This document shows, one piece after another, positions 14,809-63,096 of a stretch of 64,000 nucleotides of DNA. Location: the NCBI RefSeq assembly GCF_900091515.1, contig NZ_LT607410.1, positions 248,001-312,000 of the forward strand, read 5' to 3'. This stretch comes from Micromonospora purpureochromogenes. GTDB lineage: Bacteria > Actinomycetota > Actinomycetes > Mycobacteriales > Micromonosporaceae. Position 1 is the stretch's first letter, and each line of letters opens with the position of its first letter. Under the pieces are notes generated by a model, which made no database searches, was not told the origin of the DNA, and saw nothing but the letters and a program-made list of their open reading frames with translations. The position numbers and the translations under genes were made by a program.

Positions 14809-14824
14809 GAGTGCGCCCGATCAG

Positions 14825-17224: not shown

Positions 17225-17246
17225 TCCTCACCGAGGGAGCACCATC

Positions 17247-23483: not shown

Positions 23484-24962
23484 ATGGCGGAAGGACCCGT
23501 CTTCAAACGCTGCTCCTGCCGCGACAGCGACGGACGCAAACTCGGCAACCGCTGCCCGCACCTGCGCCGGCCCAGCGGGGCGTGGAGCCCCACCCACGGC
23601 CGGTGGGCCTACCAACTCGAACTGCCCACCCACCCCGGCAAGCCACGCCGGCAACTGCGCCGCAGCACCTTCGACACCCGCGACGCCGCCACCGCCGACC
23701 GCGACCACGCCAAAGCCCTGCTCGCCCTCGCCAGCGACGACCCGGCCGTCGCCGCCGAGATCGCCGACCTGCTCCTCACCGTCCCCTCCGGCGCACCGCT
23801 ACCGGACCGCGACACCATCGCCCGCCGGGTCCGCGCCGGGCTACCCGCCACCGTCACGACCACCGTCGGCGAATACCTTGAGTCGTGGCTGGCGTCCCGC
23901 CGCAACCTGCGCAGCGTCCAACCCAACACCCTGCTCGCGTACGAGTCGCACATCCGCACCCACCTGGTCCCCCACCTCGGCGCCATCCCCCTGGTCAAAC
24001 TGCGGGTGGAGCACATCGAGGCCATGTTCACCGCCATCGCCGACCGCAGCACCGCCATCGAGATCGCCCGGCAGAGCGACGAACCCGCCATCCGCGCCAG
24101 CGTCCGCGGCCTACGCACCACCCGACCGGCCAGCATGCACCGCATCCGCGCCACCCTGCGCAAAGCACTCAACGACGCCATCCGCCGCGGCAACAACCGG
24201 CTCATCGACTTCAACCCCGCCGCCCACATCGAACTGCCCTCCGGCGTACGCCCCAAGGCCCGGGTCTGGACCGCCAACGCCGTCCAACGGTGGCGCGACA
24301 CCGGCGAGCGACCCAGCCCCGTCATGGTGTGGACACCCCAGCAGGCCGGGGAGTTCCTCGACCACGCCGAAGAACACGACATCGCCCTCTACCCGCTGTT
24401 CACGCTGATCCTGCACCGGGGCCTGCGCCGAGGCGAGGCCGTCGGACTCACCGACACCGCCGTCGACCTCGACAACTCCCTAATCAGCGTCACCCAACAG
24501 ATGGCCACCCACGGCTACACACCCGTCATCAAGAAGGTCAAGTCCGAGTCCGGCAACCGGATCATGGCCCTGGCCAGCATCACCCGTACCGTCCTGCGCG
24601 CCCACCACGCCCGCCGCGCCCAGTGGAAACTCGCCGCTAATCACACGTGGCCCGACACCGGACTGTTCTTCGTCCAACCCGACGGGCAACCCTGGCACCC
24701 CAACACCGTCACCGACCGGTTCGAAGCCCTCGTCCGCGACGCCGACCTACCGCCGATCCGACTGCACGACCTGCGGCACTGCGCCGCCACCTACCTGAAA
24801 GCCGCCGGCGCCGACCTCAAGGACATCCAGGAACTCCTCGGCCACTCCTCCGCCGCCATGACCGACGTCTACACCTCCGTCATCGCCGAACTCGACGTCG
24901 AACGCGCCAAAGCCGAAGCCGCCGCCAAGCTGCTCCCCCGTCGGCGGACACGAGCCGCGTAG
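23484..24962 (+). CDS. int: Tyrosine-family site-specific integrase
   Basis: The 492-aa protein has the expected parts of an actinomycete element integrase: an N-terminal arm-type domain ([20 protein letters not shown]), a SAM-like core-binding domain ([34 protein letters not shown]), and the catalytic domain. All catalytic residues are present: Arg in [13 protein letters not shown], the HxxR box [12 protein letters not shown], His in [11 protein letters not shown], and the nucleophilic Tyr in DVYTSV. The ATG start has GGAAC close by and directly follows the excisionase-like gene. No tRNA fragment was found just downstream, so the attachment site remains unknown. Confidence 0.94.
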
Positions 24963-26240: not shown

Positions 26241-26706
26241 ATCCGATCCGGCAGCCCCGTCCGAACTGCAGCACCTGATCCCCCTTGTACACCGGCGCGC
26301 CGCCGCAACGGCAACGACAGATCATTGAACAGGTTCGGTTCCCGCGCGGCTGGACGGAACTCGCTGCGGCCAACGACAGATCCGGGTCACCGCATGATCC
26401 TCACCCGCAACCGCGGCCGCGCCTCGATCAATGCGCGTCCACCATCTCCTCAGACGGACAGGGACAGCACTTACCATCCACAGTGTCAATCACCCGAAAG
26501 AGGTTCGACTTTAGGACGACACGACGAGAAACTGTCGGGGGGTCCCCGACACAATGAGCGGCACGCGCATCGCCAGCATCGCAGAACGGTGAGGCACGAG
26601 TGCGTCACTGAATGGACGGGGTGGTTCTACGGGCAAGGTAGATACCCGCGAGCTGCAGCTTCAGCAACTGCTGAAGCAGATCGGCCCGTGCGACAGCGAC
26701 ACCCTC

Positions 26707-29700
26707 GTGACCGCTGCCCAGCAGCGATGGCCCGGGGCGCCGGCTCCCCGGGTGCGCAGCGTCGTGGCCAAGGCCATCACCGCCGACCTAATCCACGACG
26801 ACGGTGGTGTCCTCTCCGCCGTCGATGACCCCACGCCCACCGGCCGGCCCACGTTGGTGCAGCGACTGCCGGGTCCGCTGCGCGCGGTGATCGTGGACGT
26901 GGAGGCGGTGATCCGGGCCAGCGCCGACCACCCAAACGGTGACCGCCGGATCTTCCAGATTGGTGCGGTACGCTTGTCGGCCGACTCGCAGTGGTGTGCC
27001 GAACAGCCGTCGTTCAGTTCCTGGGTCAAGCTTCCGAACCTGGAGTGGGAGCAGCAGCTGCGGTCAGCTGACGTCCGCGAGCAGTACACGCAGCACGCGG
27101 TCGACCTGGAGCAGGTGCTAGACGGGCTGCGTCAGTACGTCGCCGACGCTGACCTGCTGGTCGCCTACAACGGGGTCGGGGCTGACTTCCCGATCCTGGA
27201 CGACGCGGCGACCCGGGCCGGGCAGCCAATGCTGCACAACCAGCGCCGGGTGGATGCTCTCTATCTGGCGTACGCGGTGTGGCCCCACGCCGATTCACAC
27301 CGCCTGGCTGAGCTCGCTGATGAGGTCGGCGTCGATCGGTCCGGGCTCAGCTGGCATGAGGCTGCCGACGACGCCGAGCTGACCGCCAGGCTGCTGCGGC
27401 AGGCGGCCGCGGCCGTCCAAGGCTGGGACGTCGGCGTTCGCGAACTGCTGTGCGCGGTCGGTTCCGGTAGCTCGGCCTGGGATCTGCTTTCGTCGCTGCT
27501 GCCCGGCCCGGTACCCCGCCCGGCGGTCGACGACGTAACCGTCGCGCGGGTGCTGGCTGACGCGCTGACTGGCCTCGACACGGCCGGCGGTTATCAGCCG
27601 GTGCGGCGTGGCCGGTCCCGGCCGGTGCTACGGCTGCCTGCTGCGGTTCGCGGCACCGGTGGGGACGTTGACCCGCACGCGCTGGCGCAGGCGGCCGCGT
27701 CCGGGACGGCGGAGCGGCGGGCAGCGCAGCAGCAGATGGCGGAGCTGCTGAGCGGGCAGATCCGCGCCGGCCGGGATGCGCTGTGTGAAGCGCCGACCGG
27801 CACCGGGAAGAGCTTCGCGGTGCTGGCGGCCGCGTTGCAGTGGCTGGACGGCGACCCGCGGCGCCGTGCCGTGATCGCGACCTACACCAAGGCGTTGCAG
27901 ACGCAGCTGGGCGCTGACATCGACCGGCTCACCGGTGTGATCGCCGGCTTAGAACAGACAGCGGACCTGGTCAAGGGGGCGGCGAACCGGTTGTCGTTGC
28001 GTGCCCTGGTTGCAGCGCTCACCGATGCCGCTGCAGCCGTGCAGGCAGGGACCTGGTGGGCAAGGACCGGACGGCCGCAGTTCGCCGCACAGGCCGGATT
28101 TCGGGAGCTGCTGATCTATCTGACCCGGCGGCTGATCACTGCGGGCACAACGCCGCAGGGGTGGCTGGCACGCAGCGCCGACCCGGTGGACCTGCCGATG
28201 TTCCTGGCCGAGTACATCGGATCAACGCACGGTCCGGTGCTCGGATCGTGGCTGCGCATTGTCAGCCAGGACGGCGACGACTACGGCCGCGGGTCGGGTT
28301 CGCCGCTGGCGGCGATGACCGACTCCGTAGCGGAGGCGCTGGCCGGGCATCGGCTGGTCATCGCGAACCATGCGCTGCTGATGAGTCGCCCGGACGTGTT
28401 CGACGAAACCACCCTGCTGATCGTTGATGAGGCGCATGCGCTTGAGCTGGCCGTCACTGGAGCGGCCAGCGCGGTCGTAGATTACCGGCTGCTGGAGAAC
28501 CTGACGGCGGATCTGCGCCGCTGGGCCGACGAGCAGGCTAATGTGCCGCCGCGGCTGCAGGCGGTGGTCGCCGAGCTGGAGGGACACCTCGACACGGAGA
28601 TCCTGCCGCGGGCGGGGCAGGGGGTCTTCGACGCCGCCGGTGGGGAGCCAGGAAGCCGGGCGGCGACCCTGGCCAGCCCGTTCGGCGGGCTAAGCGGTGA
28701 CCGGCCGGCCCGGCAGCTGCTGTCGCGGCTGGACACGATCGCAGTTGTCTCTGAGCAGGTGCACCGGCAGCTGGCCGCGTACCTGCAGGCGCCGGGGATG
28801 CAGTCGGTGTCGTGGTGGGAGAAGGAGCGGGCCGGTTCGCTCGTAACCCGGGTCGCGCGGCTCGCGGACGCGGCCGGACGCATCGTCGCTGACGCCCGCG
28901 CCATCCTCGACCAGGATACGGAACCCAGCACGGACGGTGACGGGGATTCCGGCATGGACGAAGGCACCGAGGACGGTGAAGTCGTCGGCGCGGTCGGCGT
29001 CGATGAGGAGGAGCTCGGCGCGGACGGTGAGGACCTCGGCCCGGATGGTCTGTTCCCGTTGACAGGCCCGGACCTGGGTAACCGGGTGGTGTACGCGGTC
29101 GAGCAGGACCTCGCCGGAGTCAGCGTATCCGCGCGCCGGTACGGATTCTCGCTGACGTCCGCTCCGATCGATCTGGCCCGTGACCCGCAGTGGCTGGAGG
29201 TCCGGCAGCGGTTCGCCCGGATTTTCTACGTGTCGGCGACGCTGCAGGTGTCCGGCCGGTGGGACTACATCCGGGAGCGGCTCGGCCTCGGTCCGGCTGT
29301 TGACGCGCACACCCTGCCGGGCCCGTTCGATCTGGCCGAGCAGGCCCGGCTGGTCTGCTTCACTGACTTTCCGAGCTGGGCCGAACAGACCGACGGCGCG
29401 GTCCGGACCGTCGCGCATCAGCTGGCCGGCTACGGCCGCGAGGTGATCCGTCCCGATCAGCAGGCGGCGTTCACCGGTGGTGCGCTCGTACTTACCACAG
29501 CGACGAGGGCCGCCGCTGCGATCACGCAGCGGCTGCAGGAGCAGGCGGTAGGGGTGCCGGTGACGTCGGCGCCGATACTGGGGAACGCCCGCGCCGCGCG
29601 GACGTTCACCGAGACTGGCGGGTTCTGTGTCGCAACGCGCGGCATGTGGCAGGGCGTCGACTTCCCTGCCGACCGGCTGTCGCTGGTGTGGATCAACAAG

Positions 29701-32571
29701 CTGCCCTTCGCGCCGTTCGCCGACCCCATCATCACCGCCCGCCGCGCTGCGGTCGCCCGCCGCGCCGAACTGGCCGGGCTTGCGGACCCGGACCGGGTGG
29801 CGACCGAGTCGTATTACCTACCGCTGGCAGCGATGGATCTGCGGCAGGCGGTCGGCCGGCTGATCCGGTCGAGTAAACACCGTGGTGTGGTCGTGATCAG
29901 CGACCGGAAGCTCGCCGGACGGACCGCGTTGCGCCGCGCGTACCGGCGGGTATTCCTGGAGTCCCTCGAACCGGGCCTGCTGGTCCCCGACGAGGACACC
30001 GGAGAGGCGGCGGGCGGGAACCTGACGACGATGGCTGACGGGTGGGCGCGGATCTGGCGGTTCCTCGGCGACAACGGCTTGGTCCCCGCCGACCGGCTCG
30101 AGCAGCTGTGCGAACCGGATGCGCTCACCGAGCAAACGCTGCTGCCGGCGACCCGCAAGATTCTGCAGGCGCAGCTGACCCCGCAGCAGGAGGCTGCGGC
30201 CCACGCCGACGGCACACTGGGACGGTTGTTGACCGACCGGTGCGCCGCGATCGGCGGGTATCTGCGGTTCTCTGACACACCGCTGGCTTTAAAGCCACAG
30301 CAGGCTCAGGTGATCGAGGCGGTCGCCGATGGTGCGGATGTGCTGGCGTTGATGCCGACCGGGTTCGGGAAGTCGTACACGTTCCAGCTGCCGGCGCTGG
30401 CGTTGCCGGGTGTCACCGTGGTCGTGTCGCCGCTGATTGCGTTGATGGCCGACCAGGCCCTGGAACTGAACGCCACCGTCGGCGGGGCGGTCCGGGCCCT
30501 GGTTGGGCCGATGGCCGAGTCGAACAGCCGGCGCGGTAAGACGGAGGTAGCCGAGCAGCTCACCGGCATCGGTGAGCACGGCATCAAGCTGGTGTACGTG
30601 TCCCCGGAACGGCTCGGGAACCGCCGTTTCCAGGACTTGCTGCGGACCGCCGCCGCTGCGGGGATCCTGCGGCGGGTGGCCGTTGACGAGGCGCACACGT
30701 TCGTGCAGTGGGGTGACGACTTCCGGCCCAGCTTCCGACGGGCCGGGCGGCTGCTGGCCGAGCTGCGGTTCCGGTACGGGGTGCGGGTGACCGCGGTCAC
30801 GGCGACCGCGAACCGGTCGGTCCGGGAAGGGCTGCGGACCGGCCTGTTCGGCCTGCCCGCCACCTCCGCGCCAGGGGAGGCGTTGGTGACGGTCGCGGCT
30901 GACCCGCTGCGCCCGGAGCTGGCGATCTACCGCCGGGCGATGAAATCTGCCGGGCCGAACACGATCGCCGGGCTGACCGAGGAGGTCGCTGCGGCGTGCG
31001 ACGAACACGCGATCTTCTACTGCCTGACCGTCAAGGAGGTCGACGCGGTCTACGCGCACCTGCGCGAGTTCGTCGGCGACGGCGCGCAGCGGGTCCGCCG
31101 TTTCCACGGCCGGCTGTCCGAGGCGGAGAAGACGGCGGTGCTCACCGAGTTCCGTGACGCCCCGGCCAGGCACGAGGACGGGTACGCGCCGCTGCTAATC
31201 GTGGCGACCAGCGCGTTCGGGTTGGGCGTCAACCGCGGCGACATCCGCTGCGTGTTCGTGGTGTCCCCGCCGACCGACCTGGCCGCGCTGTATCAGCAGC
31301 TCGGCCGTGCTGGACGGGACCAGGCCGGTAGGCCGCCGGCTGATGTGACCGCCCCGTCGGCTGGGCTGGCGCTGGGCTCCGGCCGCGGGTTCCGGACCGT
31401 GGCGTGGATGGCCGCGCAAGGCCTGCCGTCGGCCACGTTGCGCACCGTCGGGCAGGCGGTGCTGACCGCAGCCCGTACCGGTGGGGTTCTGGACCCCGAC
31501 CGGGTCACCGACAGTTGCATGGCATCGGACCTCGCCGCCGGCAGGTTGTCGCGTGACGACGCCCGCCGGCCGGGCACGGTGTCGCAGTATCGGTCGGCGG
31601 TTGTCCGAGCCCTCGCCGTCCTCGCCGAGACCGGGACGGTCGACGACCACGGCGATTTCCCTTCGACAGTGATGATCACCCCGCTCGACGACCCGGCCCG
31701 CTGCGACGACCACACCCTCACCGCCGCCGCCTCTGCGGTCGCTGCGCTCGCTCTCACCTCGCCAGGCCGGCACCGGCTGACCGACGTGCACACGACCCTG
31801 ACCACCCAGGTGCGCGGGTACCGGCTGATCGCTGATGACCCGGCCCAGACGTGGGCGGTCCTGGCGACCCTGCACGATCTCGGCGTCGTCGACGTGTCCC
31901 AGGCCGGGAATAACCGAACCCTGATCGCGGTCGGCCCGGGCGGCAGCAGCGCCCTTCCGGTCGACTATCTGCGGAAGATGACCGGGCACCGGGCCCGCCT
32001 CACCGACGACCTGCGGGAACTGGGCGCCTGGTACGACGCGAGCGTGTGCGCCAATGCCGGGTTCGCGGGCTACTTCTCCCTGACCGGGTCGACGATGCTG
32101 CCCGACGAGGTCTGCTCAACCGCAGCGTGCCGTTGCTCCACCTGCTGGGCGATCAGCGGCGACCCTAGGCCGGTGCCGGCGCTGCTGGAGGCGTTGAACA
32201 CGCCACGGCCGCGGCCGACCGCACGCCGGGACGCGGCGCCGTACCGGGAAGCGGTCCAGCGGTATGTGCGGTCGCTGCTGTGGGACAACTACCGCGGCCT
32301 AACCATCGGCATGATCCACCGGGTTCTGCACGGCGACGAGACGTATCTGGCCGGCGACGGTCGTCGCCGACCACTGTGGCCGCGGCTGCTGTACCACCGG
32401 CTGCGCGGCGTCGACCCCGGCATCAAGGTCGCTCACGTACAGGAAGCCGTCAACGAACTGGCCGGCTGCGGCGACATCACCGGTGACGGCCGGCTGTGGC
32501 GGCTGCCCCGGTACGCCGAACGTGACGCCGCCCGGGCCCGCGCCCAGGCGGTTGGGAATGGGACAAGATGA
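26707..32571 (+). CDS. DEDD exonuclease-DinG helicase-RecQ helicase fusion (1954 aa)
   Basis: Three enzyme modules lie in one protein. Residues about 58-235 are a DnaQ-like 3'-5' exonuclease (VIVDVEAVI with DxE, LLVAYNGVGADFPIL, WHEAADDAELTARLL). Residues about 340-1080 are a DinG/XPD-type helicase: EAPTGTGKS, LLIVDEAHAL, IFYVSATLQVSG, GMWQGVDFPADR and DLRQAVGRLIRSSKHRG. Residues about 1200-1560 are a RecQ-type helicase: ALMPTGFGKSYTFQLPA, VDEAHTFVQWG, TAVTATANRS and QQLGRAGRDQAG. A C-terminal Cys cluster (CSTAACRCSTC) sits near residue 1800. The GTG at 26707 is used; the frame is open further upstream to about 26592. The gene overlaps the next by four bases. Confidence 0.88.
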   Translation: MTAAQQRWPGAPAPRVRSVVAKAITADLIHDDGGVLSAVDDPTPTGRPTLVQRLPGPLRAVIVDVEAVIRASADHPNGDRRIFQIGAVRLSADSQWCAEQPSFSSWVKLPNLEWEQQLRSADVREQYTQHAVDLEQVLDGLRQYVADADLLVAYNGVGADFPILDDAATRAGQPMLHNQRRVDALYLAYAVWPHADSHRLAELADEVGVDRSGLSWHEAADDAELTARLLRQAAAAVQGWDVGVRELLCAVGSGSSAWDLLSSLLPGPVPRPAVDDVTVARVLADALTGLDTAGGYQPVRRGRSRPVLRLPAAVRGTGGDVDPHALAQAAASGTAERRAAQQQMAELLSGQIRAGRDALCEAPTGTGKSFAVLAAALQWLDGDPRRRAVIATYTKALQTQLGADIDRLTGVIAGLEQTADLVKGAANRLSLRALVAALTDAAAAVQAGTWWARTGRPQFAAQAGFRELLIYLTRRLITAGTTPQGWLARSADPVDLPMFLAEYIGSTHGPVLGSWLRIVSQDGDDYGRGSGSPLAAMTDSVAEALAGHRLVIANHALLMSRPDVFDETTLLIVDEAHALELAVTGAASAVVDYRLLENLTADLRRWADEQANVPPRLQAVVAELEGHLDTEILPRAGQGVFDAAGGEPGSRAATLASPFGGLSGDRPARQLLSRLDTIAVVSEQVHRQLAAYLQAPGMQSVSWWEKERAGSLVTRVARLADAAGRIVADARAILDQDTEPSTDGDGDSGMDEGTEDGEVVGAVGVDEEELGADGEDLGPDGLFPLTGPDLGNRVVYAVEQDLAGVSVSARRYGFSLTSAPIDLARDPQWLEVRQRFARIFYVSATLQVSGRWDYIRERLGLGPAVDAHTLPGPFDLAEQARLVCFTDFPSWAEQTDGAVRTVAHQLAGYGREVIRPDQQAAFTGGALVLTTATRAAAAITQRLQEQAVGVPVTSAPILGNARAARTFTETGGFCVATRGMWQGVDFPADRLSLVWINKLPFAPFADPIITARRAAVARRAELAGLADPDRVATESYYLPLAAMDLRQAVGRLIRSSKHRGVVVISDRKLAGRTALRRAYRRVFLESLEPGLLVPDEDTGEAAGGNLTTMADGWARIWRFLGDNGLVPADRLEQLCEPDALTEQTLLPATRKILQAQLTPQQEAAAHADGTLGRLLTDRCAAIGGYLRFSDTPLALKPQQAQVIEAVADGADVLALMPTGFGKSYTFQLPALALPGVTVVVSPLIALMADQALELNATVGGAVRALVGPMAESNSRRGKTEVAEQLTGIGEHGIKLVYVSPERLGNRRFQDLLRTAAAAGILRRVAVDEAHTFVQWGDDFRPSFRRAGRLLAELRFRYGVRVTAVTATANRSVREGLRTGLFGLPATSAPGEALVTVAADPLRPELAIYRRAMKSAGPNTIAGLTEEVAAACDEHAIFYCLTVKEVDAVYAHLREFVGDGAQRVRRFHGRLSEAEKTAVLTEFRDAPARHEDGYAPLLIVATSAFGLGVNRGDIRCVFVVSPPTDLAALYQQLGRAGRDQAGRPPADVTAPSAGLALGSGRGFRTVAWMAAQGLPSATLRTVGQAVLTAARTGGVLDPDRVTDSCMASDLAAGRLSRDDARRPGTVSQYRSAVVRALAVLAETGTVDDHGDFPSTVMITPLDDPARCDDHTLTAAASAVAALALTSPGRHRLTDVHTTLTTQVRGYRLIADDPAQTWAVLATLHDLGVVDVSQAGNNRTLIAVGPGGSSALPVDYLRKMTGHRARLTDDLRELGAWYDASVCANAGFAGYFSLTGSTMLPDEVCSTAACRCSTCWAISGDPRPVPALLEALNTPRPRPTARRDAAPYREAVQRYVRSLLWDNYRGLTIGMIHRVLHGDETYLAGDGRRRPLWPRLLYHRLRGVDPGIKVAHVQEAVNELAGCGDITGDGRLWRLPRYAERDAARARAQAVGNGTR

Positions 32572-34940
32572 CCGCGACCAGCAGCACCGTGTGGCGGCCG
32601 TTCTACGATGAGCCGTTGTTCGTGCCGGAACTACTGCACGGCCCCGACACTGTCCCCGGCCTATTGCGGGACAGGATCGTCGGCTACCTCACCCGGGTCG
32701 CGGAGATCCGGCGGGCACCGCTGCACACCTGCACCGCGTTCAACGCGCTGCATTTCGGGTTCGACCTCGACGCTCACGGCTACCGTGCCGAGGTCCTCGC
32801 CCCTGACCTGTTCGTTCAGGTCGCCGCGGAGCAGCAGGAGCGGCCTGTGCTGCCGGTCGGCACGTTCGTGCACATCGACCGCGGCGGCCGCCGGTCGCTG
32901 CTGGCCGAGGTCGTCGCCCGCTACGGCGCCGACCCGGCCGTCGACGACGACGGCTGGGTACCGGCGGCACTATCCGGTGCCCCGCCCGGCCGCGACGAAC
33001 CCGACGGTACCCGCACCGGTGTCGAACGGGTCATCCTGGACGTGGAAGCGTTCGGGGCCCCGCTCACCGCCGCCGACTACACCGAACTGGACCGGCTGCG
33101 CCGCCGCGGCCAGGTGCTCGACGCCCGTGGTCACCTGACCGGGCCCGTGCACTACCCGGCTGGGAACGGCGGGCGTGACGACGTGGCCCTGTACGGCGCC
33201 TACCTGCTCGGCCCGGCCCGCCCGCTGCTGCTCGGCGGCCCGCTCGGTGGTCTACTCACTGACCCTGGTGACGGGCGGGTGCTCACTGCCGCCCTACATC
33301 AGGCACTCCGCACCATCGACCAACTCCTCGACACCGCCCGCACGCTGCGCCGCTGGCACGGGTACGCCATCAGCCGGGCCCGGTTCAAACAGCGGCGCCG
33401 TGTCGGTTGGCCTGGCCTGCCCGCAGCAGACGTCGACGACGTCGTCGGCGCCGTGCGCCGCAGCGGCCCCCAGCCGCGCTACACCGGTGTCTGGCCGCTG
33501 CTGGCCGCCCGCGTCGCCGGCGACGGCATGGATGCGGACCCGCTTGAGCTCGCCGGCGCCGCCGACGTGCTCGTGCACACCAACCTGACCGCCGCAGATT
33601 TGGTCGCCGAGGCCATCGACGGTCTCCTGCCCGGCGGTGTGCACCTACGCGTCGACGACGTCTGGCAGGCCGGTGGCCTGTGGCGCGCCCAGCGGGAGCC
33701 GATCCCGGCGACGGTGCTGGCCGCCGACCCGCGTACCCCGCTCGGCCTCGGCCACCAGCCCGCCGTCCAGGACAGCCTCGAACCGTCCGAGACCGGCTCC
33801 GCCTCGTCCGCAGGTGGGCGGCAGCCCGCACCACCAGAACCGCCCGCTGAACATGGCGTTCCCAAAGGCGAGGAGACCATCCCGGGTGAGGACGGCACGC
33901 CGGGCGAGGACGCCGCAGCTGGCGAGGAACCCGGCGAGAACCTATCCGATCTCGTCGTCGTCCGCGACAGCCTGGTCGTTTACACCGTTGCGCTGCGCGA
34001 AAGTCACTGGAATGCCGGTGAACTGCCCCTGCCCGAGCAGGCGGCGGACGTCCTCGCCGACGGGCTGTTGATCATGCAGCTGCACCACGACGGTGAGACC
34101 CTCGACGAATCCGAGCAGATCCAGCGGATCAGCCGTGACGGCACGGTCCTGACCGGTATCAGCTGGCCGTGGAGCTTCTACCCGGGCATCAAGGTCACCG
34201 TAGCCGCAGCCCGTAACGCCACCCGGCTCAGCGTCACCACCACCCTGCTCGACCAGCCGCTGCCGTACGGCGACCATTACCGGTGGGAAACCAACACCGC
34301 CATCCTCGCCGCCGCGATCGGCGCCGACCAGCCACCACCGCAACCCACCGCCCCACCCGAGGCGCCGGAGCCGCTGCCGGTCAATACTTCGCAACGGCAC
34401 CGTGGCGTCCCCCAGCTGCGGGGGCTGATCATCGCCGCGCTGCGCCGCCACGGCGCGCCCGGAGCGTTTCAGGCGCGACGACTCACCGGCCCGCAGCTGC
34501 TCGCCGCCCTATTCGGACCCGACCTGGTCGCTCCGCCGCTGATGTGGGAGGTCATCTACACCTGCGACCGGCTCGTCGACGCGGGCAAGCTGACAAAGGA
34601 ATCCGGTGCCACCAGCCCCGGCCGGCTTGGCAGCGGCGGCCCCGATGTGTTCGTGTGGTGGCCCGATGACACCGCCCGCCGTAACGCCCATCAGAACACT
34701 CCCCGGGATGCGGTCCTCGCCGGCCGGGTCCGTGAGCACTGGGTGCCGCCGTTCTGTCGGCTGCTGCAGCCGGGCCACCAGGCCAGTGACACTGCCCGCC
34801 AGGCCTACGCCGCGTGGGTCGTCGAGGTGCGCGGCCCGGACGCCGACACCAACCTGCCGGCCGGTTACACCTTCGTTCGCGGCCAGCTGCGCGGTGCCGG
34901 CGAATCCGCCGGCCTGCTACGTCTCGCGGCCGAGCCGTAG
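32568..34940 (+). CDS. Large hypothetical protein of the helicase trio (790 aa)
   Basis: I do not recognise any domain in this 790-aa protein. It starts at an ATG overlapping the helicase stop (ATGA). The N-terminal 400 residues are a mixed alpha/beta region with conserved-looking stretches such as LHTCTAFNALHFGFDLDAHG and RYTGVWPLLAARV. A disordered, acidic linker follows (about residues 395-455, EETIPGEDGTPGEDAAAGEE). The C-terminal third contains RRHGAPGAFQARRL and VFVWWPDDTARRN and may be a winged-helix or DNA-binding region. Tight coupling suggests it forms a complex with the exonuclease-helicase fusion. Confidence 0.75.
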   Translation: MTATSSTVWRPFYDEPLFVPELLHGPDTVPGLLRDRIVGYLTRVAEIRRAPLHTCTAFNALHFGFDLDAHGYRAEVLAPDLFVQVAAEQQERPVLPVGTFVHIDRGGRRSLLAEVVARYGADPAVDDDGWVPAALSGAPPGRDEPDGTRTGVERVILDVEAFGAPLTAADYTELDRLRRRGQVLDARGHLTGPVHYPAGNGGRDDVALYGAYLLGPARPLLLGGPLGGLLTDPGDGRVLTAALHQALRTIDQLLDTARTLRRWHGYAISRARFKQRRRVGWPGLPAADVDDVVGAVRRSGPQPRYTGVWPLLAARVAGDGMDADPLELAGAADVLVHTNLTAADLVAEAIDGLLPGGVHLRVDDVWQAGGLWRAQREPIPATVLAADPRTPLGLGHQPAVQDSLEPSETGSASSAGGRQPAPPEPPAEHGVPKGEETIPGEDGTPGEDAAAGEEPGENLSDLVVVRDSLVVYTVALRESHWNAGELPLPEQAADVLADGLLIMQLHHDGETLDESEQIQRISRDGTVLTGISWPWSFYPGIKVTVAAARNATRLSVTTTLLDQPLPYGDHYRWETNTAILAAAIGADQPPPQPTAPPEAPEPLPVNTSQRHRGVPQLRGLIIAALRRHGAPGAFQARRLTGPQLLAALFGPDLVAPPLMWEVIYTCDRLVDAGKLTKESGATSPGRLGSGGPDVFVWWPDDTARRNAHQNTPRDAVLAGRVREHWVPPFCRLLQPGHQASDTARQAYAAWVVEVRGPDADTNLPAGYTFVRGQLRGAGESAGLLRLAAEP

Positions 34941-35009
34941 CACCGCCCTGCCTGACCCGCACCGCCACTCCCTCGAGCGTGAACCACCGCGGAAAGTGAG
35001 ACCCCTGAG

Positions 35010-38000
35010 ATGGCTTCCTCGTCACGGCGCCACCGGCGCCGGAACCCGCGTACCTGCGCCCACGAATGCACCCACATCGGCCCGGAACTGGCGGCAGCCC
35101 GCGACGACGCGGTCGCAGCACTCAGAAGCGAACTGGACAAGCTCACCGACCCGATCGGGACCGCGCTCGAATCCCTCAGCGGGGAGCAGTTTGCCAGCCT
35201 CGTCTGGCAAGTGCCTCAACCAGGCAGGACCGACTTCCTGACCCACTTAGGAGTCCCGCCCGCAAGGCGGCCCACCGCCACCGCCGCTCGCATGGGTCTG
35301 AACAAACTGCGGCATTGGCCGAAACACCAACGCGACGATGCCGCCCTGTTCATCACCCACCCTGTCGCCGACCGCCTCCACGCGCTGTGGAAGAAGAACG
35401 CGGCTGGCGGCGAGCAGCAACAGGAAGATGCGCTGCGGGAGGCGCTGACCCATGACCCGAGTCAGACCAACACCCTACGGCTGGCGCTGATCTGTCACAG
35501 CCCTAACACCTGGGCCATGACCGTGGCGCTGCGAGTCGGCTTGGACGCTGCGCTGGGGCACCCGGACTGGCCGCAGACGGCGGTGGACGACATCACGACG
35601 GTATGCCGGCGCGTGGAGTCGGTACGGGCGCAGGTCGCCGCCGCTCACGCACAGCAGCCGCACGACAACGGTCCGCACGACGACAATGAGATCGGTGACG
35701 ATGAGACCGGTGACGAACCCTGCGGTGCCCAAGCCGACGAGGACGCTGCACTGACAACGCCGCCCAGCTCGGGCACGGAACTGATACCCGAAGGACCCAA
35801 TACCGTGTCTGGTGAGACCGACAACCTCCAACCCGTCTCCGACGGCGATGCGGCCGGATCGGGAGAAGACCTCGCCGCCGCCGCCGCGGACCTAGTCGAA
35901 CGTCAAACGCAGGCGCGGCTGGCCGCAGCGACGCTCACGGACCTTCTGCACCGCGGTGAGATCCCGCCCCTGGGCGCCCTCAACCCGGTTGCCGCGTTCA
36001 TCCAAGCCGCTGACCGGGTGCGCGACCTGCTCAGCGGACCGGACCAGACCATTCCCGCTGACGCGACTGTCGAGTACCTGCTCACCGCGCTGTCGGTCAC
36101 CGCCGACCTGAACGACCAGCGGTCCCGGCTCGCCGATTTCAGCCGGCTCACCGGCCCGGACACCGAACGCGACCGGATCGGCAAGGCGGTGGTCCTGGCC
36201 ACCGCACTGCAGCAGATGCCGGTGTGGGGACCGCAGCAGCAGGAGCACGTCACCGGACTGTTGAGCCTGCTCGGTCTGATCGACGCGGCTGCGGCCAAGG
36301 ACATGCAGGCGCTTCCCGCCGCCTTCGCCAGCGTTGAGCAGCACCTTCCGGACAACATCGCCGCTCTGCGGATGCCGGCCCTCGGCGGCCAGTTACAGAT
36401 CACCGGGACCAACTCTGATGCCGACGGCGTCCCGGCCGCAGAAGACACTGCGCCGGCACAGGACCCGACACCAGCTGCCGCCGCGCCGGAGCCGGTGCGG
36501 GAGCCTGCTGTAGTAGAGGGCACCGCCGCCACCACAAAGGCACTCTCCACCACCGGTGTTCCGGTCGTGCAAGCGCCACCTGCGGCCAGCACACCTGCCA
36601 CCGTGACCCCGCCCGCCGGAGAAGACGAGCCCGCCGACACCGCCGCAGGACGTGAACTCGTCCGGCAACTGCTCGGTGCCAGCCGCCTGAGTCTGGCCCA
36701 CCACGCCGCCGCCGCGTGCGGTGACCGGCACCGCGCCGACGCGCTGCGTATCCTGACCCTCGCCGACGCGGTCCGCAGCGAAACGTCTCCGACCGCTGGC
36801 GCGCTGCGGACCGCGTTGGAAGGCGAACAGGGCGGTGCCGCGTCGGGTGACACCGCCGCGCAGATGTTGCTGCTGGCCGGAACGGTGCGGGCCTGTCTTG
36901 TCACCGCCGACGCTGGAGCCGGCCGGATCGCCAAGACGATCGCCGCGTCCCTGCATCAGCTACCGGCCCTGGCCATGATCGCTGACGCGATCGGGACCGC
37001 GACCGAGAAACGCCTCCTGTACAGCCCGGATGTCCTCGCCGCTCTCGCCCCGATCGCCGGAGCCGCCAACGACATCGCCATGACCGTCGAGGCCGCCCAG
37101 TCCGAGGTCAGCCGGCCCCGCAACCTGGACTTCGTCCGGGCCAGCCAGATCGCCGACCTGTGGTGGGCCCCGAACGGTGTCATCGGCCGGATCCTCGCTA
37201 CCGCCGCCGCCGACCGCCGCTCGGAACTCGAAACGGTCGCCGAGCAGCTGCGGCTGTTCGCCAAACGGCAGTACGTCGACGACCTGCTCAACCAGGAGGA
37301 CGCACATCTGCGTTCGGGCAGCAGCCGCCAGCTGCAGGGCCAGCAGCGCCGCAAACTCAAGGAGATGGTCGACCGGTCGGTGACCGCCGTCCGCGCATGG
37401 GCCGACGCGGTCCGCGCGAACCAGGCCGCCGCCCAGGGCCCCGTACCCGCCCACCTGGCGAAGCTGCGCCTCGACGTCCTGGTGCAGTGGCCGGCCGCCG
37501 AACACGAGTTGCAGAATCTGATCACGGTAGCCGCCGACATGCCGTGGATGCTGCAGGCCGAGGCGGCGCAGGCGTGCCTGACCAGCATGCGCGGCAGCGT
37601 CGGCATGCTCGACGGTGACAAGCCCGCCGGCCCGGACCGTGACCCCGACGTGGTCGTGCACCAGGGCCTGCTGCGTTGCGCAGCGCTACCGTTCACCGCC
37701 GATGGGGTACCCGCCCGGCCGGTCACCGTCGACGACGTCCGCACTGCAGCCAACACCAGCTGGGAAGACGCATTCACACAGCGGATCGCCGAGGAGGACT
37801 ACGCCACCGCCGCGCTGATAATCGACGCGGTCACTGACCCGACCCAGAGCCGGGCCATGCACGACCGGCTCGCCTACGCAGCCGCGCAGACCTTCGACGA
37901 GCTGACGACCCTGCACCGCGAAGTGTCCGGCGATGTAGCCCGCGCCACCCGGCTCGGCCAGCTCGACGAGATCGCGAGCACCGCCATGAACAGTGCCCTG

Positions 38001-41000
38001 GCCGCCGCCGACCTCGGCCGGATCGGTGGCCCGCCACAGAGCAGCAACCTCAGTGAGTTCCGCAGCCGGCTCATGGACGTGCGGGCCCTGCTGCCCCAGC
38101 ATCTGCAGGAGGCCCAGAAGGCCCTGCGCAAACGGGCCGAAAACGAGGTCCCGGCCGGCCCCGACCGGCAGCAGCGGCTAACTTCGATCTACGCCCGCAT
38201 CGACGCGGGCGACCTGTCGACCGCCGAGGAATACCTGCTCGCCGCAGTGCACGGGGAGGCGCCGCCGACCGCTGAGCCGTCCGACGACCTGACCCGATTC
38301 CTCGGACTCACCGTACAGGTGGCCGGCGGCCTGACCCGGGGGATGGTCAACGCGATCCGCTACGGAAAACCGCAGGCCTCGCTGGGCGTGACAAACCTGT
38401 CCGCAGCACAGCGAACCACCGCCGACACACTGCAAATGTGGCTCGACATGCGCGACATCCGGCATAACAAGGTGCAAAAGAGCAGCCTGATGGCGGCGCT
38501 ACGACTGGCTGGTATCGAGTTCGCCAACATGCAGCCGCTGCGGGAACTGTCAGCCAGCTCCCGCCGCGCCTGGTGGGACCTGACCGGGGTACGACGGATC
38601 GGGGAGACCCCCGGCGTGCCGCAGTTCAGCCCGTCGGCCGGTGAACGACAGCGGATCATGCTCTGCTGGGGAGAGCCGGACGTGCGGGCCATGTTCGGCT
38701 GGATCGCCCAGGATCCCGGCACCGACCTCCCGGTCATCGTGCTGCTGTTCGCGGCGATGACCCCCGACCAGCGCGAAGAACTCGCCATGATGTGCGCGCA
38801 GCGCAGCGAGAAGCCGGTCATCGTCATCGACGACATCGCCATGCTGCACTTGGCGCTGCACGGCAGTGGCCAGTTCATGGCCACCGCCCGGACGTTGCTG
38901 CCGTTCGCGGCTGCCAACCCGTACGCCCCGGACGGGCTGGCAGCCCTTCCGCTCGAGATGTTCTTCGGACGCCGGTCCGAACGCGCCGACATCATCGACC
39001 CGTACGGCGCGAACCTGCTCTACGGCGGCCGGCAGCTCGGCAAAACGGCCCTGTTGCAGGAAGCCGCCCGCGCGTTCGCTCGCGTTCCCACGAACCTGCC
39101 CATCTACGTGACCCTGCACAACGTCATCGGCACCAAGGTCAACCCGCTCACGCTGTGGGACAAACTGTCCGAGAAGCTCGCCGAAGAAAAGATCCTGCCG
39201 CCGAAGAAGACCCGCGACCCGATCAAGAACGTCACCACCGCGATCAAAGCTTGGCTGGGCGAGAACCCGACCCGGCGGATGCTGCTACTCATCGACGAAT
39301 GCGACGGGTTCTTCGACGCGGACGCCGAGCTCGGCTTCGAGCACGTCACCCATCTGCGGAACCTGCGCGACGAGACCAGCCGCCGATGCAAGCCGGTCTT
39401 CGCCGGCCTGCACCAGGTACAGCGGTTCGCGCATCTGCCGAACCAGCCGCTGGCCGGCGCCCACCTCGGTGAACAAATCGCGATCGGCCCACTCAGCCCA
39501 GAACCGGCGTATCAGCTGCTGTTCACCCCCATGGAAGCCCTCGGGATCAGGTTCGCCTCCGACGAGCTGATCCACCGGATCCTCGCCTACTGCAACTACC
39601 AGCCGAAGCTGCTGCAACTGGTCGGCAAGGCCCTCGTCTCCTCGGCGCTGTCCCGCCGTGACGGCGGCCCCTACTACCTGATCGACGAGAAGCTGCTCGA
39701 CCAGGTCCTCGGATCCGAGTCCCTGCAGCAGCGGGTCCGGCAGACCGTCCGCCTCACCCTCGACCTGGACTCCCGGTACAAACTCATCGCCCTGGTCGTC
39801 GCGTACGCCGCACTTGAGCACGGCGCCGACCACACCATGACGACTTCACAGCTGCGTGAGGAATGCCAGAGCTGGTGGGCGGCCGGGTTCGCCCGCCAGG
39901 AGCCCGCCGAGTTCCGGTCCCTGCTCGACGAAATGCGCGACCTCGGTGTCTTGGCGGTCACCGCCGGCACTCGGTGGCGGCTGCGTTCCACAAACGTGCT
40001 GCGACTGCTCGGCTCGACCAACGAGATCTGGGAAGAACTCTGCAGCTCGCAGTGGCGCAACACGGTTACGAAACTGTCCACCGAACAGGCCCGCGGCCAC
40101 CTCGACAACGGGCTCGTTTCCCCCTGCACCGAGCAGCAGCTGTCCCGGATCGTCAGCCGCACCACCGGCAGCACCGTACGCGTAATCGCCGGAACCCCCG
40201 CCACCGGTGTCGACCGGGTCCGTGACCTGCTGGAACACTCTCGGAAAGGGTTCGGTGCCCGGTTCGACCTGACGGTACCGAACGGCCCTCAGGCGTACGG
40301 GAAGGCGTTGCGGGGTGGTGAGGCAGGAGGTCGGCACCACGTCGTCCTGAGCCAACTGCTTGCCGCGAAACCCGACACCGTCGCCGAATCGATCGCCAAG
40401 GCGATGCAGGTTCAGCCGACGGCAGGCACGACCCGTACCGTCGCTGTCCTCGTCGACGTCAACACCCCGGGGATCCTCGATCTGCTGACCGGCTCGGACT
40501 TCGCCGTCAGCAACGACGACGTGATCACGCTGCGCCGGGCCACCGACATCGGACTGCGCGGCTGGCTGTCGGACAACGAGCTGATGAAGACGTTCACCGA
40601 CGCGACCAGCCAGGCCGAGCTCATGACCGCGACCGGCGGCTGGCCGCTCCTGCTGGACCTGGCCGCCGCCAAGGCCCGCGAGTACACGAGCACCCACAAG
40701 GTGTGTGACCAGGTCACCGCGTACCTGACGGCCGCTGAAGGGGCTGCCGAGTTTATTGAGGCGACCGGACTGCGAACCGACTCTGATGCCGGAGACTCTT
40801 TCCAGGGCCTGATTGACTACGCAGGCCCGGTCACCTCCGACGAACTGGTCGAGTTGTGCGCGGTGACCTGCTCGGATCCGGTACGCACTGCCAGGATCCT
40901 GCAGATCCTCGACGTAGTCGACCAGAGCGACGTCGACGGGCGCTGGACACCGGAACCCGTTACCGCCGCCGCGTGGCGGCGGCTGCACGCACCCGCGTAG
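35010..41000 (+). CDS. Giant protein with AAA/STAND-type ATPase domain (1996 aa)
   Basis: The third gene of the trio starts 69 bases after the second. About 1300 N-terminal residues are helical with low-complexity linkers (for example PAPVREPAVV-like Pro/Ala runs around residues 470-550) and match nothing I know. An AAA_16/STAND-like ATPase follows at about residues 1310-1560: MFFGRRSERADII, Walker A GGRQLGKTALLQEAAR (about residue 1340), Walker B RMLLLIDECDGFFDAD, then winged-helix-like segments (HRILAYCNYQPKLLQLVGKA). Another 400 residues complete the protein. STAND ATPases often act as sensors that oligomerise on infection signals. No nuclease motif was seen, so effector activity may reside in the partners. 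Confidence 0.85.
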   Translation: MASSSRRHRRRNPRTCAHECTHIGPELAAARDDAVAALRSELDKLTDPIGTALESLSGEQFASLVWQVPQPGRTDFLTHLGVPPARRPTATAARMGLNKLRHWPKHQRDDAALFITHPVADRLHALWKKNAAGGEQQQEDALREALTHDPSQTNTLRLALICHSPNTWAMTVALRVGLDAALGHPDWPQTAVDDITTVCRRVESVRAQVAAAHAQQPHDNGPHDDNEIGDDETGDEPCGAQADEDAALTTPPSSGTELIPEGPNTVSGETDNLQPVSDGDAAGSGEDLAAAAADLVERQTQARLAAATLTDLLHRGEIPPLGALNPVAAFIQAADRVRDLLSGPDQTIPADATVEYLLTALSVTADLNDQRSRLADFSRLTGPDTERDRIGKAVVLATALQQMPVWGPQQQEHVTGLLSLLGLIDAAAAKDMQALPAAFASVEQHLPDNIAALRMPALGGQLQITGTNSDADGVPAAEDTAPAQDPTPAAAAPEPVREPAVVEGTAATTKALSTTGVPVVQAPPAASTPATVTPPAGEDEPADTAAGRELVRQLLGASRLSLAHHAAAACGDRHRADALRILTLADAVRSETSPTAGALRTALEGEQGGAASGDTAAQMLLLAGTVRACLVTADAGAGRIAKTIAASLHQLPALAMIADAIGTATEKRLLYSPDVLAALAPIAGAANDIAMTVEAAQSEVSRPRNLDFVRASQIADLWWAPNGVIGRILATAAADRRSELETVAEQLRLFAKRQYVDDLLNQEDAHLRSGSSRQLQGQQRRKLKEMVDRSVTAVRAWADAVRANQAAAQGPVPAHLAKLRLDVLVQWPAAEHELQNLITVAADMPWMLQAEAAQACLTSMRGSVGMLDGDKPAGPDRDPDVVVHQGLLRCAALPFTADGVPARPVTVDDVRTAANTSWEDAFTQRIAEEDYATAALIIDAVTDPTQSRAMHDRLAYAAAQTFDELTTLHREVSGDVARATRLGQLDEIASTAMNSALAAADLGRIGGPPQSSNLSEFRSRLMDVRALLPQHLQEAQKALRKRAENEVPAGPDRQQRLTSIYARIDAGDLSTAEEYLLAAVHGEAPPTAEPSDDLTRFLGLTVQVAGGLTRGMVNAIRYGKPQASLGVTNLSAAQRTTADTLQMWLDMRDIRHNKVQKSSLMAALRLAGIEFANMQPLRELSASSRRAWWDLTGVRRIGETPGVPQFSPSAGERQRIMLCWGEPDVRAMFGWIAQDPGTDLPVIVLLFAAMTPDQREELAMMCAQRSEKPVIVIDDIAMLHLALHGSGQFMATARTLLPFAAANPYAPDGLAALPLEMFFGRRSERADIIDPYGANLLYGGRQLGKTALLQEAARAFARVPTNLPIYVTLHNVIGTKVNPLTLWDKLSEKLAEEKILPPKKTRDPIKNVTTAIKAWLGENPTRRMLLLIDECDGFFDADAELGFEHVTHLRNLRDETSRRCKPVFAGLHQVQRFAHLPNQPLAGAHLGEQIAIGPLSPEPAYQLLFTPMEALGIRFASDELIHRILAYCNYQPKLLQLVGKALVSSALSRRDGGPYYLIDEKLLDQVLGSESLQQRVRQTVRLTLDLDSRYKLIALVVAYAALEHGADHTMTTSQLREECQSWWAAGFARQEPAEFRSLLDEMRDLGVLAVTAGTRWRLRSTNVLRLLGSTNEIWEELCSSQWRNTVTKLSTEQARGHLDNGLVSPCTEQQLSRIVSRTTGSTVRVIAGTPATGVDRVRDLLEHSRKGFGARFDLTVPNGPQAYGKALRGGEAGGRHHVVLSQLLAAKPDTVAESIAKAMQVQPTAGTTRTVAVLVDVNTPGILDLLTGSDFAVSNDDVITLRRATDIGLRGWLSDNELMKTFTDATSQAELMTATGGWPLLLDLAAAKAREYTSTHKVCDQVTAYLTAAEGAAEFIEATGLRTDSDAGDSFQGLIDYAGPVTSDELVELCAVTCSDPVRTARILQILDVVDQSDVDGRWTPEPVTAAAWRRLHAPA

Positions 41001-42041: not shown

Positions 42042-42116
42042 TGGTGGGCCGCCTGGGACTCGAACCCAGAACCTAAGGATTAAAAGTCCTCAGCTCTGCC
42101 ATTGAGCTAACGGCCC
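42042..42116 (-). tRNA. tRNA-Lys (anticodon UUU), CCA encoded
   Basis: The minus strand folds into a complete tRNA. The acceptor arm GGGCCGT pairs with GCGGCCC, the D-arm has GCTCAATGGCAGAGC, the anticodon loop is CTTTTAA (anticodon TTT, Lys), and the T-arm is CTGGG-TTCGAAC-CCAGG. The 3' CCA is encoded at 42044-42042. Its 3' side faces the island to the left. Confidence 0.95.
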
Positions 42117-63080: not shown

Positions 63081-63096
63081 CTCTCCCGCAGGTCAG

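Follow-up and report, generated by a model that had tools for sequence, protein, structure and literature searches.

The window, that is, the whole 64-kb stretch of DNA analysed, carries three intact genes arranged head to tail and followed by a strong hairpin (Table 1). The coordinates and lengths of the three reading frames agree with those of a first-pass annotation made from the sequence alone, and the hairpin placed there at the operon end is likewise real: its folding energy is -62.1 kcal/mol over 90 nt (z -8.35), which none of 200 shuffles equalled, although it is absent from the output of a terminator scan that requires a T run. For P0001, the open reading frame stands as earlier noted but its start at GTG 26707 does not, because conserved winged-helix-like codons continue in frame upstream. 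The true start therefore probably lies further 5′, and no ATG, GTG, or TTG occurs in the P0001 frame within this upstream segment.

The three genes reside in a composite island of ~87 kb at a tRNA-Lys gene, a site that is without an island in three relatives. Both the helicase-nuclease pair and the integrase that had been proposed for this island were recovered, the former as a DEAD helicase and an Mrr_cat protein (14786-17714) located ~9 kb upstream of the trio and the latter ~2 kb upstream. A homologue of the small excisionase-like protein that opens the integrase module occupies the equivalent position in G057, G060, and G083, where the integrase upstream of the trio is 46% identical to that of the window (36-37% in P. 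mayteni). At the DNA level, the integrase is 83.6% identical to a segment of G006 that lies 1.2 kb from tRNA-Lys.

Table 1. Positions of the operon, its protein domains, and associated island features in the window.
Feature	Position	Strand	Remarks
Small HTH protein, excisionase-like, start of the integrase module	23086..23481	+	HTH_17 E 5.8e-4, under cut-off
Tyrosine integrase of the trio-carrying element	23484..24962	+	Phage_integrase 2e-22
Conserved non-coding stretch 5′ of the operon, possible promoter region	26480..26592	+	Alignment with G070 and P. mayteni
In-frame codons before the called P0001 start, winged-helix-like N-terminus	26593..26706	+	Kept as protein in relatives
P0001, exonuclease-DinG-RecQ fusion	26707..32571	+	1954 aa as called; true start probably upstream
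P0001 DEDDh exonuclease domain, aa 61-230	26887..27396	+	Pfam RNase_T E 7.5e-9
P0001 DinG-type helicase, ~aa 338-1090, without four-Cys Fe-S cluster	27718..29976	+	Pfam, PADLOC, and NCBIfam profiles
P0001 RecQ-type helicase core, aa 1194-1540	30286..31326	+	NCBIfam recQ 3.7e-60
P0001-specific C-terminus with invariant Cys (C...CRCS.CW)	31354..32568	+	Served as diagnostic profile A6
P0002, without known family	32568..34940	+	790 aa; 4-base overlap with P0001
P0002 N-terminal domain, ~aa 1-395	32568..33752	+	Seen only in the P0002 family (32-row alignment)
P0002 C-terminal module, ~aa 470-780	33975..34907	+	hhalign probability 100, E 6.7e-46
P0003, giant ATPase	35010..41000	+	1996 aa
P0003 P-loop ATPase core, ~aa 1298-1535, GGRQLGKT and LLLIDECD	38901..39614	+	Walker A/B in 14/14 rows
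Long G+C-rich hairpin after P0003	41014..41066	+	Folding energy vs shuffles
tRNA-Lys (ttt), island integration hot spot	42042..42116	-	
44-bp copy of the tRNA-Lys 3′ end (93%), att-like remnant	63038..63081	.	Inverted relative to the tRNA

The three proteins

The first-pass annotation had read P0001 as an exonuclease, a DinG helicase, and a RecQ helicase in one 1954-aa chain, and Pfam indeed places on this single chain RNase_T, Helicase_C_2 of the DinG type (aa 923-1086, E 8.9e-24), DEAD (aa 1197-1373, E 8.8e-32), and Helicase_C (aa 1428-1538, E 5.3e-13). NCBIfam adds dinG_rel (6.2e-58) and recQ, both under their curated cut-offs (TIGR01407, 196.8 bits vs 547.7; TIGR01389, 204 vs 640.2; TIGR00614, 186.6 vs 219.8). 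The helicase and exonuclease motifs are retained at 42-82% identity: the catalytic acids and His of the exonuclease are kept in 16 of the 17 aligned rows that hold the domain (in G1041, H replaces one D), and RecQ motifs I, II, and VI in all 18 rows, each of which has 0-3 Cys between DinG motifs I and II. The closest solved chains to the RecQ part in the PDB are RecQ, BLM, RECQ1, RECQ5, and WRN, the WRN chains among these matches being named bifunctional exonuclease-helicase.

Searches of Pfam, PADLOC, NCBIfam, and PHROGs gave no match for P0002, described earlier as unrecognised. A PDB profile search gave nothing usable (best E 1.8), and an AlphaFold model from a two-sequence alignment has a mean pLDDT of 31.2, too low for a fold to be assigned. 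In its N-terminal domain, H53, N59, E114, D158, R176, N339, and D364 are invariant among the rows of the 32-row alignment that have the column. The C-terminal module is also found in stand-alone proteins of ~290 aa and as the last part of ~920-1000-aa proteins, and the short matches to the P0002 profile in 31 of 35 matched family genomes represent this module alone, not the whole system. Profile comparison rejected two candidate identities, a hidden pPIWI_RE protein (hhalign probability 0.3) and a relative of the small protein that accompanies other giant ATPases (0.1).

With respect to P0003, previously called a giant STAND-like ATPase, the label ATPase is sound because all 14 aligned sequences retain both the Walker A and the Walker B motif and several distant relatives (e.g., from Salinibacter, Azospirillum, and Agrobacterium) score above the AAA_22 cut-off; the label STAND-like is the weaker of the two. 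P0003 itself matches no curated family in Pfam or NCBIfam above cut-off, its ATPase matches being sub-threshold (Pfam ATPase_2, E 0.0078). Its best PDB profile match (E 0.014) covers 37 residues around Walker A in the tetratricopeptide-repeat sensor PH0952, a STAND protein, and its C-terminal 892 residues, modelled by AlphaFold with a two-sequence alignment, have a mean pLDDT of 35.4. P0003 is described here as a giant ATPase, probably of ORC/STAND type, whose family spans at least four phyla (Actinomycetota, Pseudomonadota, Rhodothermota, and Cyanobacteriota).

Distribution and genomic neighbours

Recurrence of the trio, a point chosen for checking beforehand, was found at 17 of the 18 P0001 loci examined (6 in Micromonosporaceae and 11 in Streptomycetaceae), all with the same gene order; at the 18th (G180), P0001-P0002 lies near a contig end. 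Purifying selection acts on each of the three genes, with dN/dS values of 0.14-0.38 over 11 gene pairs, which, together with the order recurring at 17 loci, indicates that the trio is more than a chance assembly. Beyond these genes, no gene cluster is common to more than 3 of the 32 compared loci outside Micromonosporaceae. The operon is rare and patchily distributed: P0001 was detected in 4/300 Micromonosporaceae and 11/297 Streptomycetaceae genomes, essentially full-length P0002 in 4/300 and 24/297, respectively, and P0002 in 5 of 151 genomes of relatives, the own genome counted.

P0001 was seen only beside P0002, whereas P0002-P0003 also occurs without P0001, which is absent from 13 of the 24 Streptomycetaceae genomes with P0002. 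According to a tree, P0001 was probably lost on two occasions with P0002-P0003 persisting, so P0002-P0003 forms the core and P0001 is optional. The fusion is therefore not essential and cannot be the sole effector, and the core may have an effector of its own; a replacement gene upstream of P0002 common to the loci without P0001 was sought and not found. Hence, the earlier view of the trio as a unit holds insofar as the three genes travel together, but the unit proper is the two-gene core, with P0001 as an optional part. Relatives of P0002 are present on 5 plasmid records, and P0002-P0003 also occurs on plasmids. A prophage origin of the trio is unsupported, as P0002 and P0003 have no match in phage records or in viral-contig pattern scans.

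In some soil actinobacteria, the operon is thus carried on mobile DNA, and known defence genes lie close by at several loci. Of 10 neighbours taken from various loci, 9 gave PADLOC matches, comprising pPIWI-RE, Wadjet JetC, type IIG restriction, Mokosh-like, PD-T7-3-like, and HamB-like proteins, a scan that is not an enrichment test because these neighbours were selected by size and position. The JetC and type IIG neighbours belong to loci without P0001.

A link did emerge to pPIWI_RE, which is part of a predicted restriction module. Such a module lies near 6 of 17 trio loci vs 1 of 14 loci without P0001, a difference that is not significant (Fisher p 0.073), and the six represent approximately three independent events. 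In G941 and G834, PprRE-PprDinG-PprPIWI-P0001-P0002-P0003 form a one-strand run; G057, G060, and G083 have a divergent module, and G956 has one 9 kb downstream. In G786, pPIWI-RE is ~33 kb away. Furthermore, three alphaproteobacterial plasmids, from Azospirillum, Microvirga, and Bradyrhizobium, encode P0003 relatives as fusions with pPIWI_RE.

Relation to named systems

A homologous trio belonging to a named system, also looked for on grounds fixed beforehand, did not emerge, as none of the named systems tested matches. The nearest relative of P0001 in layout is the ExoDinG subgroup of DinG-like proteins (S. aureus, B. subtilis), with which it shares the hallmark of an N-terminal DEDDh 3′-5′ exonuclease domain followed by a DinG core, although the dinG_rel cut-off is not reached; P0001 goes beyond ExoDinG in having an entire RecQ helicase core, as well as a C-terminus that bears Cys and an N-terminus of winged-helix-like character. 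A DinG protein with a 3′-5′ exonuclease domain has been shown to act as a 3′-5′ exonuclease and 5′-3′ helicase (PMC12345164). The word RecQ is absent from the main text of a 2025 survey of ten DinG subgroups (PMC11981726), and no paper naming an exonuclease-DinG-RecQ fusion was found in the open-licence PMC literature. WRN combines an exonuclease with RecQ, as does P0001, which adds DinG; the likeness is functional only. RecBCD couples two motors of opposite polarity to a nuclease, again a likeness of function only, with the polarity in P0001 taken from the helicase families.

Among defence systems, Hachiman (HamAB) resembles the trio as a helicase-nuclease system, and a HamB-like helicase is encoded in the window (14786-17224). 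Hachiman is reported to sense aberrant DNA (PMC12278908), but the helicases and nuclease of the trio are different, and the giant ATPase and P0002 are its own. The pPIWI-RE module (PprRE, PprDinG, and PprPIWI) likewise includes a DinG-type helicase in a defence-like operon; unlike it, the trio has no PIWI, REase, or Z domain in Pfam. No pPIWI_RE match was found in P0002 or P0003 with Pfam or PADLOC, PprRE has no match in the trio, and PprDinG is not among the best 25 of 40 PADLOC families of P0001. Large P-loop ATPases of the ORC/Cdc6-STAND type, such as BrxC and SspC, take part in DNA-targeting conflict systems (PMC12839542, PMC10853773), which P0003 resembles in being a large P-loop ATPase and from which it differs in its lack of a curated family match above cut-off. 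Type IV CRISPR (CasDinG) was ruled out by score (TIGR03117, 64.9 bits vs cut-off 400) and by partners without a match.

The comparison with Dpd-type systems made in the first-pass annotation was not upheld. The RecQ part of P0001 does match PADLOC DpdF models (2.3e-67), a likeness limited to a RecQ-like helicase, but it scores higher as recQ (204 bits) than as DpdF (NF041063, 175.9 bits vs cut-off 550). P0002 and P0003 match no PADLOC family, Dpd or other, and the three genes include no modification enzyme. Dpd membership was rejected on the scores; no DpdA was found among 10 window neighbours scanned with Pfam.

Proposed function and alternatives

We consider it somewhat probable (roughly 0.55) that the locus represents a mobile anti-invader operon of Actinomycetota, composed of a P0002-P0003 core and the optional effector P0001. 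The proposal of an undescribed defence system thus retains its fusion, its mobility, its nearby defence genes, and its lack of a named match, and we infer defence itself from context and the mechanism from domains. P0003 and P0002 would form a recognition and switching core, in which P0002 is probably a nucleic-acid-binding adaptor with its own C-terminal module. P0001 would serve as a one-chain DNA destroyer whose DEDDh domain digests 3′ ends, while its DinG motor would move 5′→3′ and its RecQ motor 3′→5′, as expected from their families; given these opposite polarities, the two motors could track the two strands of a duplex in the same direction. Such logic would be that of RecBCD, or of the exonuclease-plus-RecQ WRN, in one chain. 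The ATP-driven core may sense some feature of foreign DNA that is being replicated or transcribed and then load or unleash P0001 on it, and at loci without P0001, P0002-P0003 would act alone or with another nuclease. Complex formation among the proteins and the order of steps are likewise inferred.

Several alternatives were weighed. It is unlikely, in our estimate, that the genes serve their carrier element through stabilisation, replication, or exclusion of competitors and not host defence. The window trio does lie between an excisionase-integrase pair and tRNA-Lys, such a pair also precedes the trio in three close same-genus relatives, and the plasmid records of P0002 relatives fit this role, but the neighbours differ among the compared Streptomycetaceae loci, at only one of which is the window integrase matched (G927, 28% identity). 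A genome-maintenance operon that has simply spread on islands, with P0001 acting in the repair of crosslinks or stalled forks and P0002-P0003 loading it, appears improbable as well. The S. aureus exonuclease-DinG is required in crosslink repair with both of its activities (PMC12345164), which shows that a pairing of these domains does not by itself imply defence, and WRN has the same exonuclease-RecQ pairing; yet the rarity of the trio among relatives, its island location, the presence of P0002-P0003 on plasmids, the other defence genes near several loci, and the probable double loss of P0001 argue against housekeeping.

We regard as rather more doubtful the idea that the trio merely extends the RNA-guided or R-loop-directed pPIWI-RE restriction module, without a function of its own. 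The adjoining or nearby modules at six loci and the plasmid-borne ATPase fusions speak for it, but the stretches examined had no pPIWI-RE at 11 of the 17 trio loci and at 13 of the 14 that lack P0001, tblastn found none in the window, and pPIWI_RE is common in any case, being present in 56 of 200 genomes. A divergent Dpd or other named helicase system is very improbable, since the DpdF likeness stays far under its cut-off and below that of RecQ.

Returning to the anti-invader reading, a more far-reaching version can be offered only tentatively: giant ATPases would direct the single-chain, opposite-polarity helicase-exonuclease P0001 to invading DNA, and the same ATPases would serve pPIWI-RE as fusion partners, making up one platform that would drive the destruction of DNA with or without a guide, through exchangeable effectors, in several phyla.

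If the anti-invader reading is true, Actinomycetota would possess an undescribed defence operon of ~14 kb, two of whose three proteins are wholly unrecognised by the 2023 PADLOC library, together with a natural enzyme whose single chain unites a nuclease with two motors. Two lineages that naturally lack P0001 provide a ready comparison of the core with the full system. Moreover, the giant ATPase family ties the trio to pPIWI-RE modules and to smaller unknown gene sets across at least four phyla, a link that makes the role of an ATPase in pPIWI-RE directly testable.

A linked three-gene operon

In this single-contig genome of 6.67 Mb, the three open frames stand at the coordinates assigned by the first-pass annotation, with gene 2 starting 4 bases before the end of gene 1, 69 bases separating genes 2 and 3, and the very stable hairpin reported there following P0003 (the 1996-aa giant ATPase). 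The fusion it proposed is likewise present, since exonuclease, DinG and RecQ domains were all found in the P0001 chain, followed by about 400 P0001-specific residues with invariant cysteines. Relatives of P0001 begin with a winged-helix-like stretch (a label read from the sequence, with no family match behind it), whose same-frame continuation lies upstream of GTG 26707 in the window. The true start is probably located there, although no ATG, GTG or TTG occurs in the frame between the upstream stop and this GTG. P0002 (790 aa) matches nothing in any of four family libraries (Pfam, PADLOC, NCBIfam, and PHROGs), and the ATPase matches of P0003 in Pfam are all sub-threshold, although its P-loop core is conserved.

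P0001 resembles ExoDinG with an added RecQ part, and falls below the curated cut-off of every NCBIfam family among the matches listed (25 of 36). Membership of the trio in Dpd, pPIWI-RE, or type IV CRISPR systems is ruled out in each case by the defining feature tested. A 2025 survey recognizes ten DinG subgroups, and the word RecQ is absent from its main text (PMC11981726); literature searches yielded no published description of the trio.

Searches of 151 genomes (its own and relatives) revealed P0002 in five, including its own, and Plantactinospora mayteni was added by scanning contigs of named genomes; in all six of these Micromonosporaceae, the trio is complete and in the same order. Among 297 Streptomycetaceae genomes, a profile search recovered essentially full-length P0002 in 24, with G834 and G909 having it in two pieces; the remaining 8 of 32 matched genomes hold fragments or the C-terminal module alone. 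P0003 lies directly downstream in 23 of the 24, and in the other (G987) a contig end cuts the P0003-cluster gene to a 209-aa start. P0001 lies directly upstream in 11; at two of the 13 loci without it (G1053, G927), the contig starts only 1-3 kb upstream. Co-occurrence elsewhere was borne out by a profile of the P0001-specific C-terminus, run without regard to P0002, which matched 11/297 Streptomycetaceae and 4/300 Micromonosporaceae genomes, exactly those in which P0001 adjoins P0002, with no P0001 lacking P0002 in either set (Fisher p 7.6e-14 for the 297 Streptomycetaceae, kinship ignored). In a distant actinobacterium (G180, 2.1 Mb), P0001 and P0002 also overlap by 4 bases, with no P0003 in the 2.1 kb between P0002 and the contig end. 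The gene that follows on this strand appears by eye to encode a DnaQ-type exonuclease carrying a BRCT-like part.

Mapped onto a tree of 31 P0003 proteins, the presence of P0001 needs two changes, so low a count arising in 0 of 500 shuffles. Loss of P0001 on two occasions from an ancestral trio is the best reading of this tree, because G180 also has P0001; there may instead have been two gains. Several long branches meet in the tree, which makes its deepest joins unsure.

All 18 P0001 sequences retain motif I and the DE.H box of DinG together with motifs I, II, and VI of RecQ, and all lack the canonical DinG Fe-S cysteines. Of the 17 rows holding the exonuclease domain, 16 retain its residues (G1041 shows H in place of one D). 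Compared with its closest relative, the window gives dN/dS values of 0.19 for P0001, 0.35 for P0002, and 0.30 for P0003, with a range of 0.14-0.38 over 11 gene pairs. The P0001 frame of G919 is split in the 18-sequence comparison; one trio member is split in each of G919, G941, G834, and G909 (L106, L099, L105, L109), and on the AD2-2 plasmid (L048) P0002 and P0003 are each fragmented, reflecting either decay or assembly errors.

The C-terminal module of P0002 also occurs elsewhere. In G027, it forms the end of a 998-aa protein without a family match, whose gene begins 7 bp after that of a PglX methyltransferase (PADLOC 1508 bits), and two Micromonosporaceae genomes encode it as stand-alone 291-aa proteins among neighbours that look alike by eye.

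Locations of features at trio loci and in related records (window coordinates unless a record or genome is named)
Feature	Location	Remarks
P0001 DEDDh exonuclease	aa 61-230	
P0001 DinG-type helicase	about aa 338-1090	
P0001 RecQ-type helicase	aa 1194-1540	
P0001, P0002 and the gene next to them, G180	L053:1212-10273	
Gene next to P0002, G180	L053:1212-2087	
PglX and 998-aa protein genes	L112:93-6147	
291-aa proteins	L115:5724-6599; L116:6929-7804	
tRNA-Lys	42042-42116	1 kb downstream of trio
Partial tRNA-Lys 3'-end copies, att-like	63038-63081; 74872-74911	second beyond window; inverted relative to the tRNA
Replication-relaxation family protein	19016-20770	near integrase; Replic_Relax 3.7e-27
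DEAD helicase and Mrr-type nuclease genes	14786-17714	overlapping
HamB-like helicase	window	PADLOC
pPIWI-RE module (three proteins)	G060	PADLOC
pPIWI_RE	G941	PADLOC
Type IIG restriction	G1037	PADLOC; locus without P0001
Wadjet JetC	G970	PADLOC; locus without P0001
Mokosh-like and PD-T7-3-like proteins	flanking P. mayteni trio	PADLOC
pPIWI_RE-ATPase fusions	L043:5245-15015; L118:4162-14346; L119:5026-14328	plasmids of three Alphaproteobacteria
Sigma-70-ATPase protein	L044:8641-15510	plasmid pBOCT2

A mobile island at tRNA-Lys

The integrase previously noted in the island proved to be a tyrosine integrase just upstream of the trio, accompanied by an excisionase-like gene; relatives of both are positioned likewise in G057, G060, and G083, and the P. 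mayteni trio has an integrase nearby, while no integrase relative was found in the stretches searched around the G070 trio. In G021 and G026, the counterparts of DNA some 12 kb left of the window and of DNA at 74.9 kb each lie within 2.6 kb of tRNA-Lys, and the flanks adjoining tRNA-Lys in G070 (on contig C15, with the trio on C77) correspond to -15.1 and 81.8 kb, which places the window within a composite tRNA-Lys island that measures about 87 kb. The strand of the tRNA relative to its flanking DNA is reversed in the window compared with G026 and G021, and the inverted tRNA 3'-end copies point to a probable inversion of part of the island. Of the 32 loci compared outside Micromonosporaceae, no more than three share any gene cluster besides the trio.

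Defence neighbours and the wider ATPase family

PADLOC matches were obtained for 9 of 10 large neighbours from different loci, picked by size and position, so that this share is no measure of enrichment; the tenth (from G1047) gave none. The helicase-nuclease pair recognized earlier in the island was recovered as a HamB-like DEAD helicase with an Mrr-type nuclease, which may represent a Hachiman-like system whose nuclease differs. Modules of pPIWI-RE (PprRE, PprDinG, and PprPIWI) occur at 6 of 17 trio loci and, among loci without P0001, at 1 of 14 (G862, about 11 kb upstream), counted over unequal flanks (about 10-30 kb upstream, contig permitting; G060, G083, G1022, and two plasmids not extended), leaving out a pPIWI_RE some 33 kb away in G786, and against a pPIWI_RE background of 56/200 Streptomycetaceae genomes. 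The module is divergent from the trio in three close copies (G057, G060, G083), forms a single run PprRE-PprDinG-PprPIWI-P0001-P0002-P0003 in G941 and G834, and lies 9 kb downstream in G956.

Searches with P0003 (tblastn) matched 27 plasmid records, those examined spanning Actinomycetota, Pseudomonadota, Rhodothermota, and Cyanobacteriota. A 3256-aa protein of Azospirillum oryzae joins an N-terminal pPIWI_RE part (PF13032 4.2e-30, PF13111, PF18157) to a C-terminal P0003 relative, its gene being preceded by the REase and Z-domain genes of the module. Microvirga (3394 aa) and Bradyrhizobium (3100 aa) share this layout: the first 960 residues contain pPIWI_RE X, MID, and RNaseH domains that pass their cut-offs, and the ATPase comes after them. 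The partner that follows is about 525-550 aa, with an AAA_33 kinase-like domain in Azospirillum; one smaller partner family follows the ATPase in these three genera, Agrobacterium, Salinibacter, and Thiodictyon, and weakly in S. fungicidicus. A WYL-domain gene adjoins the module or ATPase in Azospirillum, Bradyrhizobium, and Agrobacterium, preceding the module on two of the three alphaproteobacterial fusion plasmids. The 2013 description presents pPIWI-RE as a strict REase-DinG-PIWI triad and, in the portions consulted, does not mention a P0003-like ATPase (PMC3702460). On the Brasilonema plasmid pBOCT2, a 2289-aa protein comprising sigma-70 regions 1.2, 2, 3, and 4 and a P0003-like giant ATPase is a sigma factor on a conflict-type ATPase; a PLD-SNF2 helicase gene follows.

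A putative gated helicase-exonuclease

Beside the observed domains, motifs, linkage, selection, mobility, and neighbours, it is the context from which we infer defence, a likely function of the operon. RecQ enzymes translocate 3'-5', and in RecBCD two motors of opposite polarity follow both strands of one duplex. The exonuclease-bearing DinG of S. aureus is characterized as a 3'-5' exonuclease and 5'-3' helicase (PMC12345164). P0001 would thus carry opposite-polarity motors in one chain, tracking both strands of a duplex in a RecBCD-like manner and feeding 3' ends to the exonuclease domain, with P0003 and P0002 sensing or marking foreign DNA and gating P0001. This specific mechanism is tentative and somewhat doubtful. 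The main weakness of a model with P0001 as effector is a possible second effector in P0002-P0003: the probable losses of P0001 suggest that the pair is of some use by itself, and the pair may therefore hold such an effector. Taken as a whole, the reading of the trio as a defence operon in which P0003 and P0002 would gate the helicase-exonuclease P0001 has a probability of roughly 0.55.
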